Assembly (NCBI GenBank): GCA_025362495.1
Contig: JANYGI010000115.1
Coordinates: forward strand, 1 to 33,239
Direction of reading: 5' to 3'
DNA length: 33,239 bases
DNA from: Byssovorax sp.
Lineage (GTDB): Bacteria; Myxococcota_A; Polyangia; Polyangiales; Polyangiaceae
The notes below the pieces were generated by a model that worked only from the letters and a program-made list of their open reading frames with translations, searched no databases and had not been told where the DNA came from. This document shows positions 9,431 to 30,431 of this stretch, one piece after another. A program made the position numbers and the translations under genes. Within the stretch, counting starts at the first letter, position 1; every line of letters starts with the position of its first letter.

Positions 9431-12355
9431 TTAGAGGCCGTGCGCCTTGGTGAGCTTGCCCAGCGTGTCGCCCCCGAGCTCGCCGTCGTTCGGGAGGTCC
9501 TGATCACGCTGGAACGCGCGGATGGCGTCCTTCAGCCCGTCGCTGGCCTTGCCGTCGGGATCTCCGGTGAAATAGCCGAGGTTGCGCAGCCGCATCTGCG
9601 CGCCGCGGACGTCGGCCGTCGGCGGGAGCTCGTCGTCGATGCGCACCTGCCAGCGCATGTGGACGCCCGTCGGAGGATCCTTGAGCCACAGCGTCACGTC
9701 GGCGACCGTCGCGGACTTCGGCACCTGCTCGCTCAGGTTGCCGCTCCCGTCGGTGGTGCCGTGGATGCGCTTGCCCGCGACCATGATATCGTATTGCTTG
9801 TTCTTGTACGGCTCGAACGAGGGATCGCAGAGCTGGAGCTTGAAGGGCTTCAGCTCGGCCGGATCGACGTCGCGGGTGTCGGTGCTGGCCGAGCCGCCCT
9901 TGGCGAGCTTCACCTGCGCGCCGAGCAGCGTCGCGTTGCTGGCGAGATCGAGAGAGGCACCCTTCGACGTGAGGGTGATCTGGTCCGAGGCCAGCGTCAC
10001 CACGTCGGTGAAATGCATCACTGGCTTCTTGCCGAAGATCGACGTCGACTCGTGCCCGTCGACGATGATGGCCTTGGCCTCGATGCGCACCTCGGTGGGC
10101 GAGAGCGTGACCCGGCTGTCGCCGCACTCGAGCACGATGGTCTTCTCGGACTGGATCCGGATCTCGTCGCTGGCGAAGAGCGTGCTCTTGCCCCAGACGG
10201 CAGAGTGGCTCTCCGAGGGCTTCTCGCGCGTGCCGACGACGGTCCCCGACGTGCCGGCGACCATGACCTGATAGTCGCCGCGCGCGGTGGTGTACGACGA
10301 GCCGCCGATGCTGCGCTGCTCGAGGCCGTCGATGGTGTCCTTGGAGTTGCCTTCCACGCGGCCGACGCGCGTCCCGTGCACGCTCTCGGTGCGATCGCCG
10401 GCCACGGTGGAGGCCAGATCGCCGCCGATGGTGAGCGAGTCGTTGCCGTGGATGGTCTCGGTGCGGCTGCCGCGCACCGTCTCGCGCTCGTCGCGGCCGA
10501 CCTCGACCGTGTGATCGAGCTGCACGACCTCGTCGAAGTTGCGCTGGGCGTGGATCAGGATCTGCTCGCCGCCGTTGCGATCCTCGAAGCTCAGCTCGTT
10601 GTGACCACCGTTGGTGGGGAGGGTGTTGGTGCGCAGGCCGCTGCGGGTCGCGTCCTCCGGCAGCGGGAAGGGCTGCGGGGTGACGGCGTTGGGCAGACAG
10701 CCAATCACGACGGGCTTGTCGGGATCGCCCTGGTGATAGAGCACCAGCACTTCCATGCCGATGCGCGGGATGAACTGGGTGCCCCAGCCCGACCCCGACC
10801 ACGCATGGAGCACGCGGATCCAGCACGAGCTGTGCTCGTTCTTCCGGCCGACCCGGTCCCAGTGGAACTGGACCTTGATCCGACCGACGCTGTCCGTGTA
10901 AACCTCTTTGCCCTCGGGCCCGACGACGACGGCGGTGTCGGCGACCTGCACGGCGCGCGGCGGCGGCCGGCGCGGGCGAATGGTGAGCTCGGCCGGAGCA
11001 CAGGTGAACGAGTTCTGGTATTGCACCGTCTGGCCACCGCCGCCCGAGGCGCCGGCGAACTCCACGGTGACGGCCTCGTGCTTCACGCTGGTGACGACCC
11101 ACACGCGGTTCATCCGCGGCTCTTCGTACTCGGCGAGGGCGAACTTGTAACCGGGTGAGAGGCGGCGACAGAGGCTCTCTCCCTCGGCCTCGAGCGCCTT
11201 GCGCCGGTGCTGCTCGAGCTGGTGCTGGGCGTTGGGGTTCTTGGCGTCTTGCTCGAAGAAATCCGACTGATGGCGATAGACCTCGCGCGGCTGGAGGTCG
11301 GTCGGCAAGCTGGTCAGGATATCGAGCGACGCCGCGCCGACGCTGCCGCTCCCGCCACCTCGCAGCGCCGTCGCCGCGTCGTTCAGGGCCGCAGTCCCCA
11401 TGGCCCCCGCGATGCTGGTCGCGCTGAGCGAGCTCGCCGTGCCGCGCGCGTCGAAGAGGGGACGCTCGTAGAGATAATCGCGCAGCATCACCGCGTTGGG
11501 TCGCATCTCGCGGCGGAGGCTGATCCGGGTGATGGTGCGCTCGCCGTCGTGGCGCAGGCCGAGCGGATCGCGGTGCACGAGCGAGGGCACCGAGCCCGCG
11601 AGGCTCGACACCACCGCGTTGCCCACGGCGCCCGCGACCGCGTCGATCACGTCGTCGGACGTGGCTCCGGCGATGGATGGATAGAAGCTCGCCTGATCGC
11701 TCACGACCATGGTCTCGACGAACCCGCGCGCGCCCGCCGCGGCCCCGAAGGCCCCCGCGGCGCCGAGGCCGAGCTGCTCGAGGATGCCAGTCGGAGGCTG
11801 GAAGTAGAAGTAACAGCCAGCCTCCGCGAGCAGCCGCTGGATGAACGCGAGATCGCTCTCCTGGTACTGGACGCAGTAGTTCCGCGGGGGCAGCGGCGTG
11901 GAGAGGTTGAAGCGCACCTCGAGCCCGGCCTCGCGCATGATCGTGGTGATCACGTCGGACGCGGGCTGATCCTGGAAGATGCGGGTGTTGACCCGCTTGC
12001 CGAGCTTCCACACCGAGGAGACCAGGCGCAGCGTGTAGCGGCGCGAGGTGCTCTCGTCCTTCCATGCGTTCTCGGCGCGCAGCCACGCGGTGATGCCGTG
12101 CACGATGCGCGGCGGGTGATCGTGGGCCTGCATCACCAGCGTCGCGGACTGCCCGACGAGGCCGGCCTCGAGCTCCCAGGGCGGCACTTCGCTGTCGAAG
12201 AGGATCTCGAACGCGAACGGCTTCGACAGCGCTTCGCGACCCTTGAACTTCAGGACCCGGAGCTCGCCCTGCATGAACGGCCCGGCGCGCAGCTCGTAGA
12301 GCGCGGGGGCAGATCCGGAAAGCCCTGAGACGCCGAGGCGCGACGTGGTGCTCAT
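9431..12355 (-). CDS. vgrG: T6SS spike protein VgrG with C-terminal peptidoglycan-binding domain
   Basis: The 974-residue trimeric spike caps the Hcp tube and punctures target cells. The gp27-like base comes first (LRAGPFMQGELRVLKFKG, then YCVQYQESDLAFIQRLLAEAG near 163-183). An Ala/Gly-rich insertion of roughly 190 residues interrupts the second half of that base. The gp5 OB domain follows (DSVGRIKVQFHWDR, WGTQFIPRIGMEVLV, GDPDKPVVIGCLPN). Next is the beta-helix with repeated VEG, TVAGDR and TIDG units. After it lies an extension with a small beta domain (about 850-905) and a PG_binding_1-type domain at about 911-974 (MRLRNLGYF...IRAFQRDQ). This makes it an evolved or adaptor-bearing VgrG aimed at the cell wall. 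No tss structural genes are present in the window, so it is an orphan spike. The ribosome site is weak. Confidence 0.95.
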   Translation of the reverse strand: MSTTSRLGVSGLSGSAPALYELRAGPFMQGELRVLKFKGREALSKPFAFEILFDSEVPPWELEAGLVGQSATLVMQAHDHPPRIVHGITAWLRAENAWKDESTSRRYTLRLVSSVWKLGKRVNTRIFQDQPASDVITTIMREAGLEVRFNLSTPLPPRNYCVQYQESDLAFIQRLLAEAGCYFYFQPPTGILEQLGLGAAGAFGAAAGARGFVETMVVSDQASFYPSIAGATSDDVIDAVAGAVGNAVVSSLAGSVPSLVHRDPLGLRHDGERTITRISLRREMRPNAVMLRDYLYERPLFDARGTASSLSATSIAGAMGTAALNDAATALRGGGSGSVGAASLDILTSLPTDLQPREVYRHQSDFFEQDAKNPNAQHQLEQHRRKALEAEGESLCRRLSPGYKFALAEYEEPRMNRVWVVTSVKHEAVTVEFAGASGGGGQTVQYQNSFTCAPAELTIRPRRPPPRAVQVADTAVVVGPEGKEVYTDSVGRIKVQFHWDRVGRKNEHSSCWIRVLHAWSGSGWGTQFIPRIGMEVLVLYHQGDPDKPVVIGCLPNAVTPQPFPLPEDATRSGLRTNTLPTNGGHNELSFEDRNGGEQILIHAQRNFDEVVQLDHTVEVGRDERETVRGSRTETIHGNDSLTIGGDLASTVAGDRTESVHGTRVGRVEGNSKDTIDGLEQRSIGGSSYTTARGDYQVMVAGTSGTVVGTREKPSESHSAVWGKSTLFASDEIRIQSEKTIVLECGDSRVTLSPTEVRIEAKAIIVDGHESTSIFGKKPVMHFTDVVTLASDQITLTSKGASLDLASNATLLGAQVKLAKGGSASTDTRDVDPAELKPFKLQLCDPSFEPYKNKQYDIMVAGKRIHGTTDGSGNLSEQVPKSATVADVTLWLKDPPTGVHMRWQVRIDDELPPTADVRGAQMRLRNLGYFTGDPDGKASDGLKDAIRAFQRDQDLPNDGELGGDTLGKLTKAHGL

Positions 12356-17839: not shown

Positions 17840-20800
17840 TCAGCGCGTCTCGCCGAGGCGCGCGAGGTACGGGGCGATGATCGCGGCGATGCGCTCACAG
17901 TTGCTGCCCTGGAACATCGTCAGATGCTCCCCCGGGATCGTCTCGACGTCGATCGTGCCCTTGACGAAGGCCCTCCAGCCGTAGAGCGGATCGTCTGTCG
18001 CGCCCGGCCAGCGCGTCGGGATCTCCGCCTGCAAGAGGAGCAGCGAGCAGGGCTCGACGCGCCCGGGCTGGTACGCATTGCGCGCGCACCAGCGCTCGAG
18101 CGTCGTGCGGCGCAGGCGCTGATTCAAGGCCGTGTCGGCGTGCGGCACATCGTCGACCGTCTCCTCGTGACGGCCGAGGCGGCGGAGGATCCGCGTCTTG
18201 ATGTTCGCGAGCCGGCTCAGCAGGTAGGCCTGCCGCTGCGAGCCGTCGCCGCGGCCGAGCTCCTTCAGGTGCGCGAGCGCCCGCTGCGGAAGCGGCAGCA
18301 GCGCGGGGTAGCCCGGCGCGAAGCCGTCGAACGAGATCAGGAGCGGCATGGGCCGCCCTCGGAGGCGGAGGCGATGCGCGAGCTCGAACGCGATCAGCGC
18401 GCCGAAGCTGTAGCCGCCGAGCACGATCGGGCCCTCGGGGATCGCGCGCACGATCGCCGCCTCGTAGATCGTGGCCATCTCCTCGATGCTGCGCGACGGC
18501 CCGGCCGCGCCCTCGGCGCCGAGCCCCTGGAGCACGTGCAGCGGCTGCGCCTCGCCGAGCGCGCGCGTCAGCTGCTGGTACATGAAGCCGTGGCCGCCCA
18601 CGCCGGGGACGAGCACCAGCGGCGTGCGGCTCCCGCGCGCGTTGAGCGTGATCAGGTGACGATCGCCGCGCGTGCTCGGCGGCGCGCCGTCGAGCGACGC
18701 GGCCAGCAGGGCGATCGTCGGCTTCTGCAGGACGCGCGTGAGCGGCAGATCGACGCCGAGCTGCTTGCGGACGCGCGAGACGAGCATCACCGCGAGGAGC
18801 GAGTGCCCGCCCAGATCGAAGAAGCTGTCGTGAACGCCGACGCTCTCGCGCTGGAGGAGCTCGCGCCAGATCCTGGCCATCTCGTGCTCCATGGCGGTGC
18901 TCGGCGCGACGAAGCCCGGGGCCGCCGTCAGGCCGGGGCTCGGCAGCGCGTTGCGGTCGAGCTTGCCGTTGGACGAGAGCGGCAGCGCGGCGATCGCGAT
19001 CACGTGCGAGGGCACCATGTACTGCGGCAGCGTGCGCCCGAGCGCCTCCTTGATCCCCTGCGCGTCGATGATCGCGCCCACGCGCGGGACGACGTACGCG
19101 ACGAGCGCGCGCTGCCCCGACGCGTCGAGCCGGGCCGCGCACACCGCCTCGCGGACCTCGGCGAGCGCGCCGAGGGCGGCCTCGACCTCGCCGAGCTCGA
19201 CGCGAAAACCCCTTATTTTTACCTGGAAATCGTTCCTCCCCAGGAACTCGAGCTCGCCGTCGTCGAAGTAGCGCGCGAGATCGCCCGTCCGGTAGAGGCG
19301 CGCGCCCGGCTCCGCGGCGAAGGGATCGGGGATGAAGCGCTCGCGCGTCAGCGCGGGCCGGTTGAGGTAGCCGTCGGCGAGGCAGACGCCGCCGATGTAG
19401 AGATCGCCCGTCGCGCCGATCGGCACCGGGCGCAGGCGCCGATCGAGCACGTGGTAGCGCGCGTTCTGGATCGGCCGGCCGTACGGGATGCTCGTCCATC
19501 GCGGATCGACGGCGCCGATCGGGAACCAGTTCGACCAGATCGCCGCCTCGGTGGCGCCACCGAGGCTCACCACGCGGGCCCCGGGGAACGCCTCGTCGAT
19601 CGCGCCCGGCAGCGCGAGCGGGATCCAGTCGCCGCTCAGCATCACGAGGCGCAGCGAGGCTCCGCCGGCCGGGAAGAAGGGCACGAGCCGCTGCAGCGCG
19701 GCCGGCGCCGAGTCCCACACCGTGATGCCGAGCGCGCCGATCGCCGCGCCGAGCGCCGCCGGATCCCCGAGCAGCGCCGAGCTCGCGACGACCACCGTGG
19801 CGCCCGCGCCGAGCGCGCCGAAGGTGTCGTAGACCGAGAGATCGAAGCACGGCGACGTGACGAAGAGCAGCCGATCGCCGGGCCCTACCGCGAACGTGCG
19901 CGTCACCCAGTCGAAGGTGTTCAGCACCGCGCGGTGCGAGAGCACGACCCCCTTCGGCTGGCCGGTGCTGCCCGAGGTGAAGATCGCGTAGCAGGCCGAC
20001 GTCGGGCTCGCGGCGCGCGGCAAGCGCGATGACGGCATCCGCGCGAGCGCGCCGGCGGCGTCGATCGCCAGGGCGGGGCACGCGAAGCTCGCGGCGAGGC
20101 GCGAGTCCGTGACGACGAGGTGCGCCCCCGCGTCGGCGAGCAAGAACGCGAGCCGGTCGCGCGGGTGCGACGGATCGAGCGGCACGTACGCGGCGCCGGA
20201 CTTGGCCACGCCGAGGAGCGCCACGATCAGATCGAGGCTTCGATCCAGGCAGATCCCGACGAACACGCCCGCCTTCGCGCCGCGGGCGCGGAGCGCGTGG
20301 GCGAGGCGGTTCGAGCGCTCGTCGAGGTCGCGGTAGGTGAGCGTGGCGCCGTCCATCTCGGCGGCGACGGCGTCGGGCTGGAGATCGGCGCGCGCCTCGA
20401 AGGGCTCGTGGATGCAGACGTCGTCGGGGAACGGTCGCGCCGTGTCGTTCCAGGTCACGAGCAGCGTGCGGCGATCGTCCGCGGGCACGACGTCGACGTC
20501 GCCGATCCGCCGCTCCGCGCCGAGCGCGAGGCCCGCGAGCGCCGCCTCCATCGCGGCGCCGAGCCTCTCTGCCGCGAGATCGGTGAAGCGGCGGCGATCG
20601 AAGAGCAGGTGCACGTCGAGGTGCTCGTCGTCGAACACGGTGACGTTGAGCGGCGGCGACGGCCGCTCGTGCAGCGTCACGGTCCGCGTGCGCCAGGCCG
20701 CGTCGCCCGTGGCGCGGAGGCTGTGGTTGAGCTCGCGGTTCTCGAACATCAGCAGCGTCTCGAAGAGCGCCGTCCCCCGCGGGATCTCGCTCTGCCCGTG

Positions 20801-21850
20801 CACCTCGACGAGCGAGGTGTGCTCGTGATCGCGCAGCGCCACGCTCTGCGCGCGGAGATCGGCCAGCAGATCGGCGACGGCGCTGTCGTCGGCGAGGCTC
20901 ACCCGCACCGGGAGCGTGTTGATGAAGAGGCCGATCATCTGCTCGGCGTCGCCGCCGAGGGCGGTGCGACGGCAGGCGCGCGTGGTCCCGAACAGCACGT
21001 CGTCGTCGCCCGTGAAGCGCCCGAGCACGATCGCCCACGCCGCTTGCACGACGGTGCCCGTGGTGGTGTGCGTGCGCCGCGCGAGCTCGCGCACGCCGCG
21101 CGCGACGGCGTCGTCGACGCGCCGCCCGTGCTCGCCGTAGCCGTCGCGCGGGAGAGGACGCGCCGCCGGCTCGCCCGCGGGCAGTGGCGTCGGGCTGGTC
21201 TTGCCGCGGAGCAGCTCGCGAAAGAACGGGCGGCTCGCGGCGACGTCGAGGTGCGCGAGCCACGCGACGTAGTCGCCGAACGGGCGTGGCAGCGGGGCGG
21301 CCGCGACGCGCTCGCCGCGGCAGAGATCGGCGTACGCCGCGAAGACCTCGCGCAGGACTGGCACCATCGATCGCCCGTCGAGGAGGATGTGGTGGAACGT
21401 CCAGACGACCTCGGTCTTCCCCTCGCCGAGCGGGAACACGCGCACGCGCATCAGCGGCGCGACGCGGAGGTTGAAGCCTCGCGCGCGATCGCTCGCCAGG
21501 AACACCGCGCGGCGGCGATCGCGCTCGTCGGCGTCGAGCCGGCTCCAGTCCTCGCTGTCGACCGGCACCACGATGCCCACGGTCGGCCGCTGTGTCGGCG
21601 CCTCCACGGCGTCCCAGCGGAAGCTCGACGAGAGGATCGGATGGCGCCGCGCCACGTGGGTCCACGCGCGCCCGAAAGCGACGTGGTCGATGTCCTCGTC
21701 CAGGAGCAGGTGCATCTGCTCGAGATCGTGACCGCCGCTCGTGGCCTCGCCGCCAAGCATGCTCTGGTAGAGCATGCCAGCCTGCATCGGCGAGAGCGGA
21801 TATCCGGGATCGGGCGACGGATCGGGGAGCGAGATGGTTAGTGCGGCCAC
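17840..21850 (-). CDS. Stand-alone nonribosomal peptide synthetase, C-A-T-TE
   Basis: The 1336-residue module condenses an incoming acyl or peptidyl unit with one amino acid and releases the product. The condensation domain covers about 10-440 (HHILLDG near 153-159, then FINTLPVRV). The adenylation domain covers about 460-960, with A3 FTSGSTGQPKG near 622, GGATEAAIW, YRTGDLARYF, the A8 KIRGFRVE region and the A10 lysine in SSNGKLDRNAL. The carrier domain has GGHSL near 1013. The thioesterase covers about 1065-1330 (GYSFG near 1147, a FDG Asp, a GEHLTMF His). Pocket residues read by eye give D-L-Y-D-M-S-L-I-W(-K), closest to the cysteine code DLYNLSLIW. The GTG at 21850 places 23 residues before the C domain; a TTG at 21883 is possible, and neither has a clear ribosome site. 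No MbtH, phosphopantetheinyl transferase or tailoring gene is adjacent. Confidence 0.93.
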   Translation of the reverse strand: MAALTISLPDPSPDPGYPLSPMQAGMLYQSMLGGEATSGGHDLEQMHLLLDEDIDHVAFGRAWTHVARRHPILSSSFRWDAVEAPTQRPTVGIVVPVDSEDWSRLDADERDRRRAVFLASDRARGFNLRVAPLMRVRVFPLGEGKTEVVWTFHHILLDGRSMVPVLREVFAAYADLCRGERVAAAPLPRPFGDYVAWLAHLDVAASRPFFRELLRGKTSPTPLPAGEPAARPLPRDGYGEHGRRVDDAVARGVRELARRTHTTTGTVVQAAWAIVLGRFTGDDDVLFGTTRACRRTALGGDAEQMIGLFINTLPVRVSLADDSAVADLLADLRAQSVALRDHEHTSLVEVHGQSEIPRGTALFETLLMFENRELNHSLRATGDAAWRTRTVTLHERPSPPLNVTVFDDEHLDVHLLFDRRRFTDLAAERLGAAMEAALAGLALGAERRIGDVDVVPADDRRTLLVTWNDTARPFPDDVCIHEPFEARADLQPDAVAAEMDGATLTYRDLDERSNRLAHALRARGAKAGVFVGICLDRSLDLIVALLGVAKSGAAYVPLDPSHPRDRLAFLLADAGAHLVVTDSRLAASFACPALAIDAAGALARMPSSRLPRAASPTSACYAIFTSGSTGQPKGVVLSHRAVLNTFDWVTRTFAVGPGDRLLFVTSPCFDLSVYDTFGALGAGATVVVASSALLGDPAALGAAIGALGITVWDSAPAALQRLVPFFPAGGASLRLVMLSGDWIPLALPGAIDEAFPGARVVSLGGATEAAIWSNWFPIGAVDPRWTSIPYGRPIQNARYHVLDRRLRPVPIGATGDLYIGGVCLADGYLNRPALTRERFIPDPFAAEPGARLYRTGDLARYFDDGELEFLGRNDFQVKIRGFRVELGEVEAALGALAEVREAVCAARLDASGQRALVAYVVPRVGAIIDAQGIKEALGRTLPQYMVPSHVIAIAALPLSSNGKLDRNALPSPGLTAAPGFVAPSTAMEHEMARIWRELLQRESVGVHDSFFDLGGHSLLAVMLVSRVRKQLGVDLPLTRVLQKPTIALLAASLDGAPPSTRGDRHLITLNARGSRTPLVLVPGVGGHGFMYQQLTRALGEAQPLHVLQGLGAEGAAGPSRSIEEMATIYEAAIVRAIPEGPIVLGGYSFGALIAFELAHRLRLRGRPMPLLISFDGFAPGYPALLPLPQRALAHLKELGRGDGSQRQAYLLSRLANIKTRILRRLGRHEETVDDVPHADTALNQRLRRTTLERWCARNAYQPGRVEPCSLLLLQAEIPTRWPGATDDPLYGWRAFVKGTIDVETIPGEHLTMFQGSNCERIAAIIAPYLARLGETR

Positions 21851-22035
21851 CCGGTAGACTAGCGAGCGCAAGCGTACGCACAATGAGGCCTACGTCGAAA
21901 AAAAGCACAAATAATCGATGAATCAGGGACACATCCAGTCTGCCGGACAGCCCACGACGGTCGATGGCTCGACGTCAATCCGTCCACCCCTTGCGATCAC
22001 CCTCTTTGCCCGCCCATACGGTGTCACGAGGTATC
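21851..22035. promoter_or_regulatory. Divergent region between the NRPS and the ftsH remnant
   Basis: These 185 bases contain the most AT-rich intergenic patch in the window (21896-21925, with an A8 run and ATAATCGATGAATCA). Promoters for the NRPS (minus) and the ftsH remnant (plus) are expected here, but I could not assign -35/-10 hexamers with confidence. GAGG (22029-22032) is the ribosome site of the ftsH fragment. Confidence 0.4.
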
Positions 22036-22530
22036 ATGGCAGAGCCATCGAGCACCGAGCCCCCGAACGCCGAGGGCGCCCCCGGACGGCCGCCCGCGTG
22101 GATTGGCTACGCTGCGCTCACCCTGCTCGTCCTGCTCCTGCCCGGCGTCTTCTCCCTGCCGGGCACGCGCGTCGTTCCCTACAACGAGGGCGTCGCGCTG
22201 GTGCAGACGGATCGCGTCGAAAAGGCCGTCGTGACTGCGGACGACGTCGTCCTCGTCGAGAAGGCCGAGAAGACCGGGGCAAAGGACGCGGCGACGGAGG
22301 TGCGCGTGAACCGGCTCCCGGGCGTCGCCGAGGAGCCTTTGATCAAGGCGTTGCTCGACCGCGACGTGCCGATCGAGGCCACCCGCGCGACCACGCCGTT
22401 CTGGCTGCAAGCGATGTTCTGGGTCCTGCCGTTCCTCGCGCTCAATGCCCTCTTCTTCTACGGGCTTCGCCGCCTCGGGCAGGGTGGTCCGGCCGGCAAC
22501 CCCGGCCCGGCCGCTTCGATCGGCAGGTGA
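22036..22530 (+). pseudogene. ftsH: ftsH remnant, N-terminal membrane anchor
   Basis: The 164-residue product is the start of an FtsH-type protease: a cytoplasmic Pro-rich N-terminus, TM1 (about 24-43), an exposed domain of about 70 residues, and TM2 (about 118-143, FWVLPFLALNALFFYGLRRLG). After the Gly-rich GQGGPAGN the expected linker and AAA+ domain are absent. Instead the DNA jumps, at about 22500/22501, into sequence that in the next frame reads RPGRFDRQ, the end of the AAA+ core. In this frame it runs on for ten residues to a TGA at 22528-22530. The ribosome site is GAGG 5 bases before the ATG. It could be a dead gene after a deletion of roughly 500-600 bases, or a retained membrane anchor. 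Confidence 0.85.
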
Positions 22531-23393
22531 TCGTGGATCGCCCCGATCTCCAGGGACGCAAGGCCATCCTCGAGGTCCATGCGCGCCCCGTCCCGCTCGC
22601 GCCCGACGTCGATCTCTTGCAGGTCGCGCGCCGGACGCCGGGCATGGCCGGCGCCGACCTGGCGAACATCGTCAACGAAGCAGCCCTGTCGGGGGCGAGG
22701 CGCGGGGCCTCGCGGGTGAGCCAGGCCGATTTCTTCGACGCCCTCGATCGCGTCCAGCTCGGGTTGCGCCGGCGCGGCGTGATCATGACCGCCGCCGAGC
22801 GCCGCCGGGTGGCCTATCACGAGGCCGGACATGCCCTGGTGGCCCTCGCGTTCCCCGACGCAGATCCGGTGGAGCGCGTATCCATCGTGGCCCGGACGAT
22901 TGGCGCTCTCGGGATGACGGTCCAGGTCCCGCGCGACGATCGCCGCATCTTCACCGAGGGCGAGCTCACGACGCGGATCACCGTGATCCTCGGCGGGCGC
23001 GCGGCCGAGGAGCTCTCGCTCCGCGAGATCTCGACTGGCGCCCACGACGATCTCGGCAAGGCGACTGGCATGCTCCGGGAAATGGTGACGCGCCTCGGGA
23101 TGAGCCGGAAGCTCGGCCTGCCGACGCTGACGCGCACCGTGGGCTCTCCCTTGCTCGGGACCACGACCGAAGAGCGCCTGTGCAGCGAGGACACGGCGCG
23201 CGAGATCGACGAGGAGGTGCGAGAGCGGTTGACCGAGCTCTACGACGCGGCCAGGCGCATCCTCGACCGGAGGCGAGGTGCGCTGGAGTCGGTCGCCGAG
23301 GCGCTGCTCGCCCGGGAGACGCTGAGCGGCGAAGAGGTCGCGCAGCTCGCGGCCGCCGCGCCCGCGCGGGAGCTGGCGCCGAGCGCGGCGTAG
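22527..23393 (+). pseudogene. ftsH: ftsH remnant, C-terminal AAA tail and M41 zinc protease
   Basis: The FtsH-like part begins at about 22504, in a different frame from the anchor, with RPGRFDRQVIVDRPDLQGR, the second region of homology of the AAA+ core. It continues through the AAA lid (PGMAGADLANIVNEAAL) into a full M41 peptidase domain. The zinc site HEAGH and the downstream Asp region (STGAHDDLGKAT) are intact. Walker A, Walker B and the pore loop are missing altogether, so ATP-driven unfolding is impossible from this locus. A GTG at 22527 overlaps the TGA of the anchor fragment (GTGA) in the correct frame, so a 288-residue protease could still be made by coupled re-initiation. The coding pattern after the junction shows no further stops or shifts. 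Confidence 0.8.
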
Positions 23394-23439: not shown

Positions 23440-25299
23440 ATGGATAGCGAGCAACCCGAGGCCTCTGTCACGCTCACTCCCGATCAGGAGGTCGAGGCGG
23501 CCCGCGCCGCGCTCGCCGCGGGCGAGATCGCCGCGGCCGCAGCCCACCTGGCGCGCGCGCTCGCGCACGACGTGGGCCGCCGCGAATGGCTGATTTTCCT
23601 GGACGAGATCGTCGAGGCCGGGAAGATCGATCCCGACACGATAGCGCCCCTCGGGGAGCGCCCGTTCTTCGCCACGGTCGCGGTCCGCGCCTACGTCATC
23701 GCGCGTCGCCGCGACCTGACCACGGCGATTCAGCTCCTCGTGCGCGTCTTCGCCGCCGAGCCTTCGGTGCCCTTCATCCAGTGGGGCGCCTCGTGGTTAT
23801 CGGCCCCGGGCGCCGCCGCGAAGGTGGATGTCGACGACGTCGTCGCTTCGCTGATCGAGCTCGTCAGGGGCTTTCCCGGGGACGACCTCGACGCTCAGGA
23901 CCGGGAGCGGCTGGCCGAGACTCTGCCGGTCCTCGAAGCCCTGGAAGAGGCCCACCCGGGCTCCTGGAGGCTCGCCGGCGTGTACTCGATGATCCTGCGC
24001 AAGGTCGGTCACCACGAGGCGGCGTCGAGCGCGGCCGAGAAGGCCTTTGCGATCGAGCCTGTCGCCAGCACCGCCATCACGCTGGCCTACGCGCGCCGGG
24101 AAGAGGGCGACTTCCCCGCGGCGCGGGCCGCGTTCGAGGCGGCGATTCGCCTCGATCCAGAGAGCCTGGAGATCGTGGCCGATCTCGCCCAGCTCCTCTG
24201 CAACAACGGCGCGATGGACGAGGGAATGGCCCTGTTCAATGCCATCCTCGCCAGGGATCCCGAGCATCATTGTGCCTATCCGGCCTCGCGCTACTGTCGC
24301 GCCCTCCGCGACGCAGACGCCGGGGCGTACGCCGAGCTCGCGGCCCACGCCGAGGCCAACCCGGACGACGAAGAGACGGCGTCCTGGCTCCAGAGCGCGC
24401 GCTGCGCCTGGCTTCACCCGCCGATTGCGCCGGTCGTCGACGAGAGCTTCACCGACCATGTCGCCGCGGCGATAGCCCACGTCGGCGCGCACGACGCCGA
24501 GCTCGATCGCTTCGGCGCGCGGTCGCATCGTTACCGGTTCGCGGCGCCTCTCCCCGAGGCGCGCGCCCGGGCGATCGAGGCCGAGCACGGCGTGGAGATC
24601 CCAGCGGATTATCGCGCCTTTCTCACGCGCGTCGCCGCGTCCGGCGCGGGGCCGTATCATGGCCTGTTGCCCCTCGACGCGCCCTCGCAGCTCGCCAGCC
24701 TCGGCGGCTCCTTTGCGCACCTGCGCCCGCTCGGCCCCGACGTCGAGGCCATGACCGAGGCGGAGCGAAAGGCCTTTGAAGGCGACGCCGCCGTGGCCGG
24801 GACAATCGCCCTCGCTCACATGGGCTGTCAGTATTTCGCTCTGCTCGTGGTCCGCGGCCCGCGCGCCGGCAGCGTGTGGGCCGACATCCGCTCTGCCGGC
24901 CTCGGCATCGTCCCCCTCCACGACTCCTTCACGGACTGGTACGGCGCCTGGATCCACGCGATGATCCACGACGAGCCCTTCGCCATCCCGGTCCCCGAGG
25001 GCCTCTGCGCCCCGCAGGACGCGCTCATCAGCTACTTCGAGAGCTGGAAGGCCAGCCACGGTATCGAGGGCGACATGACCCAGGAGCAAACCCGCGAGGC
25101 CGTGAGCGGCATCGGCGCCGGAGGCATCGAGACCAGGGCCGACGCCTCACGCTACTTCGACGCCGACGATCCGGTCGACGTCTGTCGGGTGTGCGATCAG
25201 ATGTTCCGGTATTTCGGCGAGCACTGCGGCCTCGTCCCGGCGCAGATCAAGGCCGGGATCCCGCCGAAGGCCGCGAGAGGCCGAGAGGGCGCGTCGTGA
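23440..25299 (+). CDS. TPR-containing protein with SMI1/KNR4 (SUKH) domain
   Basis: The 619-residue protein has Ala-rich helical repeats in the first half. TPR-like pairs are clearest at about 175-275 (YSMILRKVGHHEAASSAAEKAFAIEP, LAYARREEGDFPAARAAFEAAIRLDP). From about 370 to 530 lies an SMI1/KNR4-type domain: helix ARAIEAEHGVEIPADYRAFLTRV, then GPYHGLLPL, GTIALAHMGCQYFALLVVRG and W-A-D. A short tail with a Cys pair (CRVCDQMFRYFGEHC) closes the protein. SUKH domains occur in immunity proteins against contact-dependent and polymorphic toxins and in regulatory proteins. No toxin gene is adjacent, so its job is open. It starts 46 bases after the ftsH remnant on the same strand. Confidence 0.85.
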   Translation: MDSEQPEASVTLTPDQEVEAARAALAAGEIAAAAAHLARALAHDVGRREWLIFLDEIVEAGKIDPDTIAPLGERPFFATVAVRAYVIARRRDLTTAIQLLVRVFAAEPSVPFIQWGASWLSAPGAAAKVDVDDVVASLIELVRGFPGDDLDAQDRERLAETLPVLEALEEAHPGSWRLAGVYSMILRKVGHHEAASSAAEKAFAIEPVASTAITLAYARREEGDFPAARAAFEAAIRLDPESLEIVADLAQLLCNNGAMDEGMALFNAILARDPEHHCAYPASRYCRALRDADAGAYAELAAHAEANPDDEETASWLQSARCAWLHPPIAPVVDESFTDHVAAAIAHVGAHDAELDRFGARSHRYRFAAPLPEARARAIEAEHGVEIPADYRAFLTRVAASGAGPYHGLLPLDAPSQLASLGGSFAHLRPLGPDVEAMTEAERKAFEGDAAVAGTIALAHMGCQYFALLVVRGPRAGSVWADIRSAGLGIVPLHDSFTDWYGAWIHAMIHDEPFAIPVPEGLCAPQDALISYFESWKASHGIEGDMTQEQTREAVSGIGAGGIETRADASRYFDADDPVDVCRVCDQMFRYFGEHCGLVPAQIKAGIPPKAARGREGAS

Positions 25300-28997: not shown

Positions 28998-30431
28998 TCA
29001 GCCGGGGCGTACAGCCCGCGTGTCCCGGGCGCGGCGGCGCCGGACGACCGCGAGCGCGACGAGGAGGCCAGTCGCGCCGAGGCCGCCCTCGGTGCTGCCG
29101 TGCTCGCTCGCCGTGTGGCAGCCGCAGCCCGCGACCTCGTTCGGCGGGGTCGAGTCGTCTTCCTCGACGGCGACGGGCAGCGGCGTGCGCAGCGCGTGGC
29201 CGGTGAGCTCGACGATCTGGAGCGGATCGCTCGGATCGTTGGAGGCGACCGAGAGGTGCGCCGTGAAGTAACCGGGCTTGTTCGGGATGAAGCGAACGGC
29301 CGAGTCGACGGTGACCGTGGTGTCGACGTCGAGCTGGGTATCCCAGGGCGGGAACACGTCGGGGTCCGAGCTTGAGATCGTGGCGGACACCTTCGCTTCA
29401 CCCGCGTTCCAGAGGCTGTACGGGAGCAGGAGCTTCTGGCCCACCTCCACGTCGCCGAAGTCGATCTTCGTCTTCGGGAGCACCAGATCCGGCAGCGGGA
29501 CGTGGACGCGCTGGGGATCGAACTTCCACGTGGTGTCGGTGATCGGGAACGCGATCGGGATGTCGGCGACGGGGATCTGCCAGTCTTGCCCGAGGACCGA
29601 GATATAGAATGCCGGGACGAGGTGGAGAATGCCGTCGTACTTGACGGTGCCCTCGGGGTGAACGTCGAGCTCGATCGACGGCCCGCTCAGGTACTTCACC
29701 GACGATTTCCCGTCGGCCGCGGTGATCGGGCCGCCGTCGACCACGACCCCGTCGGTGGTGGCGACGACCACTCGATCGGTCGTGTACGTCGCGTCGAGCT
29801 GGAGAGCGACCTCGAGCTCGAAGCCACCGTCGAGGCCGGGGATGCCGCCGATGATGTCCTTGAGGCCGACGCTGGCGATTTTCTGAGGCTGGGTGAGGCC
29901 GGAGAGCTTCACCCCCGGATCGTGGGCCCAGGCGTCGAAGATCTTGTGGTCTTTGACCTCGAGATCGAACTGGGGGACATAGGGTATGTCGCCCGTCCAC
30001 GAGTACGTCTGTCCAGCGACCTTGATCGACACCATGCCCTGAGCGCCGAAGTCGGCGCCGTAGTGGAAGCCGAAGTCCCCACCTTCCTTGTTGCCGGGCG
30101 CCTCTAGCACGAGCGCGTCGGGCCACGAGGTGACGAGATCGCCGGCGAGGGCAACATGGGTGTTGGCCCAGACGTCGGCCCAGATGTGGACCTCGACCGG
30201 TGAGCCGCTGGGCACCCAGCCGGTGTCGAAGCTCCACTGGATGGGCAGCGCGTCGGTCTTGTCGAACTTGAGCGGGCCGGCCGCCTCGCAGAAGAGTGGA
30301 TTGTCGCCGCAGGGCGCCGCCAGCGAGATCGGATCGGCGCTGGCGCGGGGCGAGCCGAGGAGCACGGCCGCCACACCGAGCGCGGAGACGACGACCGGGA
30401 GAACGCGCGAGGAAGAGGAAAGAAGCCGCAT
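28998..30431 (-). CDS. MYXO-CTERM surface protein with SPD-2/Hydin-like domain
   Basis: The 477-residue exported protein has an N-terminal signal peptide (hydrophobic core 11-26, likely cut after ASA near 32). A long beta-rich region of unknown type (about 35-330) is followed by an ASPM/SPD-2/Hydin or choice-of-anchor-D-like Ig domain (about 340-425; IDFGDVEVGQKLLLPYSLWNAG, FIPNKPGYFTAHLSVASNDP). The tail has GCGC (about 435), a Gly-rich hydrophobic helix and RRRR, the MYXO-CTERM sorting signal of myxobacteria. It should be anchored at the outer surface. The ribosome site is not obvious. It precedes the IgGFc-type lipoprotein gene on the same strand, but a hairpin and 142 bases separate them. 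Confidence 0.87.
   Translation of the reverse strand: MRLLSSSSRVLPVVVSALGVAAVLLGSPRASADPISLAAPCGDNPLFCEAAGPLKFDKTDALPIQWSFDTGWVPSGSPVEVHIWADVWANTHVALAGDLVTSWPDALVLEAPGNKEGGDFGFHYGADFGAQGMVSIKVAGQTYSWTGDIPYVPQFDLEVKDHKIFDAWAHDPGVKLSGLTQPQKIASVGLKDIIGGIPGLDGGFELEVALQLDATYTTDRVVVATTDGVVVDGGPITAADGKSSVKYLSGPSIELDVHPEGTVKYDGILHLVPAFYISVLGQDWQIPVADIPIAFPITDTTWKFDPQRVHVPLPDLVLPKTKIDFGDVEVGQKLLLPYSLWNAGEAKVSATISSSDPDVFPPWDTQLDVDTTVTVDSAVRFIPNKPGYFTAHLSVASNDPSDPLQIVELTGHALRTPLPVAVEEDDSTPPNEVAGCGCHTASEHGSTEGGLGATGLLVALAVVRRRRARDTRAVRPG

Follow-up and report, generated by a model that had tools for sequence, protein, structure and literature searches.

The ftsH gene at 22036–23393 (+ strand) of the analysed window consists of an FtsH membrane anchor and a lid and M41 protease part that are joined out of frame, with the AAA+ core absent. 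In the assembly this core is missing, the orthologues in related genomes are intact and so are the paralogues of the same genome. The reading that we prefer, to which we give somewhat more than an even chance, is a real and recent internal deletion of about 538 bp, by which the core was lost and the frame was shifted in a third ftsH paralogue. The window is the whole stretch of DNA that was analysed, 33,239 nucleotides in length, and corresponds to one whole contig (C140) of a source genome of 10.84 Mb in 240 contigs.

Architecture of the interrupted ftsH gene

The features on which the analysis is based are given below with their positions in the window.

22036–22530, + strand: FtsH N-terminal anchor fragment (PF06480 FtsH_ext, E 3.5e-7)
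22501–22504, + strand: junction, resolved to a few bases only, by comparison with intact orthologues
22503–22524, + strand: 22-base string encoding RPGRFDR, present in exactly two copies in the genome
22527–23393, + strand: lid and M41 protease fragment (PF17862 AAA_lid_3 and PF01434 Peptidase_M41)
28998–30431, − strand: gene without assigned function, with a homologue downstream of the ftsH orthologue in Minicystis and in genome G018

The anchor reading frame extends from an ATG at 22036 to a TGA ending at 22530 and encodes 164 aa, with a GAGG-like ribosome site, as judged by eye, directly before the ATG. It is composed of an FtsH_ext domain between two hydrophobic stretches, which were judged by eye from the sequence to be two membrane helices, and of a tail of about nine out-of-frame residues that leads to the TGA. 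The PF06480 match scored 30.8 bits against a cut-off of 25.5, as is expected of the N-terminal anchor of an FtsH protein. Identity to the corresponding part of seven intact orthologue records was 42–49%, and comparison of the anchor with TIGR01241 gave no match at E 0.01.

The protease frame can be read from a GTG at 22527 to a stop at 23393 (288 aa), and the homology begins at about 22503. A search with the stretch beginning at 22530 identified AAA_lid_3 at E 6.7e-13 and Peptidase_M41 at E 8.4e-59. The zinc site of the protease, proposed to be intact by the reading that had been made from the sequence alone, was indeed found in this fragment as HEAGH, the HExxH motif of FtsH. Its TIGR01241 score was 306.8 bits, which is below the family cut-off of 600.

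Comparison with the intact FtsH of Minicystis, the residues of which were numbered from its probable Met, matched residues 8–143 to one frame of the window and residues 323–601 to another, with none between. Residues 144–322 have no counterpart in the window and no Walker A or Walker B of an AAA+ core is present; in the relatives, Walker A, Walker B and the pore loop fall inside this missing segment. The alignment, together with the Pfam matches, confirmed the earlier description of an anchor that is followed by a protease in another frame, with the AAA+ core gone. From the linker proline codon to the valine codon that corresponds to the GTG of the window, there are 564 bases in Minicystis and 26 in the window. 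The difference, about 538 bp, cannot be divided evenly by 3; it is a hand calculation and supposes that the linkers of the window gene and of the Minicystis gene are of equal length.

Several other genes of the window were annotated. A TPR protein is encoded downstream of the M41 fragment (23440–25299, + strand); its SMI1/KNR4 (SUKH) domain is weak and narrowly misses the cut-off, and a search of seven orthologue loci found no relative of the protein. On the other side of the ftsH fragments lies a single-module nonribosomal peptide synthetase with condensation, adenylation, carrier and thioesterase domains (17840–21883, − strand). A VgrG-type spike protein is encoded at 9431–12355 (− strand; Phage_GPD, Gp5_trimer_C and Phage_base_V), and its C-terminal peptidoglycan-binding domain is a possible cargo.

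Orthologues, paralogues and constraint

The source genome belongs to the Polyangiaceae, as do Minicystis and Polyangium. The family comparison covered 108 genomes, the source genome included, and the order comparison 183 genomes, in which no other genome carried the genus code of the window. Twelve other family genomes carry an orthologue, with 69–75% identity over the M41 part, and in all 12 the gene is a stop-free open frame of 645–774 aa. The whole translation, with Walker A and Walker B, was read in seven records, namely G018, G013, four Polyangium records and Minicystis; some named records probably duplicate genomes that are designated by G handles. The closest relatives found were the FtsH orthologues of Minicystis (a match is present in Minicystis rosea CP016211), Polyangium and genus g19. 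All 12 family orthologues found are unsplit, and the split is therefore seen in one genome only. A conserved split gene pair was rejected on the same count. Intact orthologues beside a disabling change form the pattern of a pseudogene, the change itself resting on this one assembly.

The gene at 28998–30431 has homologues with 57% (locus L064) and 51% (locus L005) identity by tblastn and gave no Pfam match. This partial synteny supports the orthology of the ftsH gene in the window. For the immediate neighbours of the gene, the search of the seven orthologue loci gave no match, and the two other weak matches revealed no common gene order. Presence of the paralogue is not universal in the family, given that a match at E 1e-70 or better was obtained in 20 of the 108 genomes, the source genome included. 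Genome G170, which shares its genus code with five carriers, had no match at E 1e-70, which indicates that the paralogue can be absent.

The search for another intact ftsH in the source genome yielded two further M41 genes with full-length frames, one on contig C61 (668 aa) and one on contig C218 (656 aa). The affected gene is therefore an additional, third paralogue, and the genome has the redundancy that is expected where a gene has become a pseudogene. When the assembly was searched with the core of the G018 orthologue, only the ftsH cores of C61 and C218 and two weak AAA matches were returned; the missing core did not turn up in any other place. Relocation of the core to another part of the genome was rejected, as the search gave no third FtsH core.

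The degree of decay in the remaining parts was assessed by several measures. The M41 part of the window is 69–73% identical to the orthologues, the main lineages of which are 70–75% identical among themselves. In a 12-row tree of the M41 part, the window branch measured 0.28 compared with 0.22 for Minicystis and 0.24 for G018, the stem of the Polyangium group measured 0.25, and the forks among these lineages were not resolved. Three-taxon dN branches of the M41 part were 0.106–0.117 for the window and 0.092–0.106 for the others; as a control, the intact C61 gene of the same genome also displayed a longer dN branch (0.071) than its own orthologues (0.044 and 0.032). The anchor result was mixed, the dN branch of the window being 0.274 compared with 0.16 and 0.26 in one trio, and 0.173 compared with 0.36 and 0.368 in another.

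In an alignment of 97 sequences, the window's own fragment included, 51 columns are conserved at 95% or more, and the window departs from none of them; from the 64 columns conserved at 90% it departs once, as do the orthologues shown. If constrained and neutral evolution are treated as a simple mixture, the constraint-free share of the branch would be 0.12, 0.22 or 0.29 at most, according to the trio used (97.5% upper bootstrap points). The tree, the dN branches, the conserved columns and the mixture bound thus gave no measurable excess of change in the M41 part, in agreement with the earlier claim that there is no decay after the junction. Since the constraint-free share is small, a neutral deletion would be young. 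The low decay fits a young event, continued selection and a gene that is in reality intact, with the break as an artefact, equally well.

The break zone and the assembly

An assembly fault would also account for the observed structure. The gene would then really be intact; the assembly would have broken at the conserved core, dropped a short piece of it and fused the anchor directly with the protease part. We regard this as a serious rival, with a considerable chance that nevertheless stays short of even. The right edge of the junction, 22503, is the first base of the 22-base string, and the second copy of this string lies in the intact ftsH on C61; both this coincidence and the M41 part free of decay are what an assembly fault would produce. 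The left flank of the junction, however, is single-copy, the contig contains no N and, as described above, the core does not occur elsewhere in the assembly. A tangle at the 22-base string would, moreover, most simply link the protease part to the core on C61 and not to its own anchor. Strings shared between paralogues over 24 bases in G018 and 29 bases in G013 occur without such a deletion, which likewise argues against the fault.

The two break zones share only 5–8 exact bases in eight of the 12 orthologues, those that were readable by script. As the missing piece is not bracketed by a long repeat in these eight, a collapse between long repeats is unsupported. An assembly collapse had been among the readings first offered; its long-repeat form is disfavoured by this result, and a fault at the 22-base paralogue repeat is the form that could still apply. 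A hairpin at the junction was also considered as a cause and rejected, the DNA fold z-score being 0.05.

FtsH breaks in other draft assemblies were compared by means of 11 other short-frame FtsH matches, 10 of which were drawn from at least 13 under 450 aa among the matches listed, with one further match added. Three further short matches, which start 141 bases or less from a contig start (G033:C649, G093:C436 and G125:C163), lie outside this set, as do several short or partial ones, among them matches in G051, G007, G033:C169, G030:C289 and G044:C524. Nine of the 11 genes run off a contig end, and three of these nine (L179, L181 and L182) end shortly ahead of the RPGRFDR/RAGRFDR motif, at a distance of no more than some tens of residues. 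In L178 (G164:C129), about 105 bases without FtsH similarity are joined at the FDR of RPGRFDR near the contig end, a structure that resembles a chimeric contig end, located at the very motif of the window. In L175 (G104:C223), 10 N separate two similar, non-identical copies of the RPGRFDR stretch, a scaffold gap situated at the conserved motif.

These breaks at or near the motif favour an assembly fault in the window, whereas the finding that none of the 11 is a seamless core deletion speaks against it. For the latter reason, the other short-frame genes were also rejected as independent losses of the motor. Given the fact that the 11 were picked for their short frames, breaks in the core are partly expected and no rate can be derived from them. 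Distant M41-like matches with 31–34% identity were observed at G041:C32:16332-17159, G055:C31:32451-33263 and G050:C142:228855-229676; they sit in long open frames of 784–2196 aa and are apparently divergent FtsH-like proteins.

The start/stop overlap and the fate of the fragments

The TGA of the anchor, ending at 22530, overlaps the possible GTG start of the M41 frame at 22527, and the sequence-only reading held that the junction creates this overlap. This was overstated, since GTGATC occurs at the corresponding site, as in-frame Val-Ile codons, in six of the 12 intact orthologues. Among the seven records compared, G013 and the four named Polyangium records carry GTG ATC in the coding frame; Minicystis and the five orthologues of genus g19 do not have GTGATC at that site. 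Whether or not GTGATC is ancestral, its presence in intact genes shows that no junction is required for it.

When the intact protease parts are shifted to the +1 frame, an in-frame ATG, GTG or TTG is overlapped by the first stop in all 12 orthologues and in 57 of the 90 other FtsH genes compared; a shift to the +2 frame never yields such an overlap. The +1 stop is the stop of the window in the six orthologues with GTGATC and lies farther on in the other six. Any TGA that is read in the +1 frame corresponds to NTG-A in the coding frame, and the overlap is therefore usual at such junctions. As its frequency is a matter of frame arithmetic, the overlap says nothing about reinitiation, and the window showed no overlap beyond this arithmetic of the kind that would mark a split gene pair.

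We consequently consider it very improbable that the fragments work as a motor-less M41 system of two proteins, with termination–reinitiation at the GTGA as the mode of translation. Such a system would be compatible with two open fragments, with the overlap of stop and GTG and with the conservation of the near-invariant M41 columns. It is opposed by the unsplit state of all 12 orthologues found, by an overlap that is expected from the +1 frame of intact genes and by the region before the GTG, in which no Shine-Dalgarno sequence was seen by eye. FtsH, furthermore, depends on its ATPase ring for the delivery of proteins to the protease. Least probable of all is that both fragments are made and that the M41 part is a newly born, ATP-independent, motor-less peptidase at the membrane, where it would be held by the separate anchor or in mixed rings with the two intact FtsH proteins. 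The suggestion of a two-protein, ATP-independent M41 protease in the making thus found no positive support.

Of the three readings originally offered, the recent deletion pseudogene is the best supported, given 12 intact orthologues out of 12 found and two other intact ftsH copies in the genome. The absence of the core from the assembly, the contig without N and a missing length that is not divisible by 3 lend it further support, as do a paralogue that is not universal in the family and an M41 part without accelerated change. Counted against the deletion are the 22-base edge and the motif breaks in other drafts, which also fit an assembly fault, and the mixed dN values of the anchor; the lack of decay would fit selection or an intact gene equally.

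If the preferred reading of a recent deletion holds, an illegitimate deletion would have taken out the AAA+ core. The membrane anchor would be produced with a short junk tail, and little or none of the M41 part would be synthesised; without a ring motor, this part would not process folded or membrane proteins, and the function would be left to the two intact FtsH genes. In this reading we infer a genuine deletion of recent date, a gene that was dispensable and a loss of its function.

The case calls for caution, as a start codon that overlaps a stop at a frame-breaking junction resembles designed reinitiation. It further illustrates that, in drafts of large GC-rich genomes, the assembly can break at the core that is conserved among ftsH paralogues. 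The event presents no new kind of system. Relative to the FtsH/M41 AAA+ membrane proteases (TIGR01241), the anchor, lid and protease parts of the window are homologous throughout, and the gene differs in its absent AAA+ core and broken frame. Young bacterial pseudogenes (PMC2916853) likewise combine a disabling change with little other decay; here, in contrast to them, the deletion itself is known from one draft assembly. A literature search over titles and the beginnings of abstracts returned no motor-less M41 protein, although one may still be in print. Plant FtsHi proteins, according to PMC9020784, are FtsH relatives without the zinc-protease motif and are established, conserved genes. They resemble the gene of the window in that one of the two FtsH activities has been lost, whereas in the window it is instead the ATPase core that is missing, and in a single genome.
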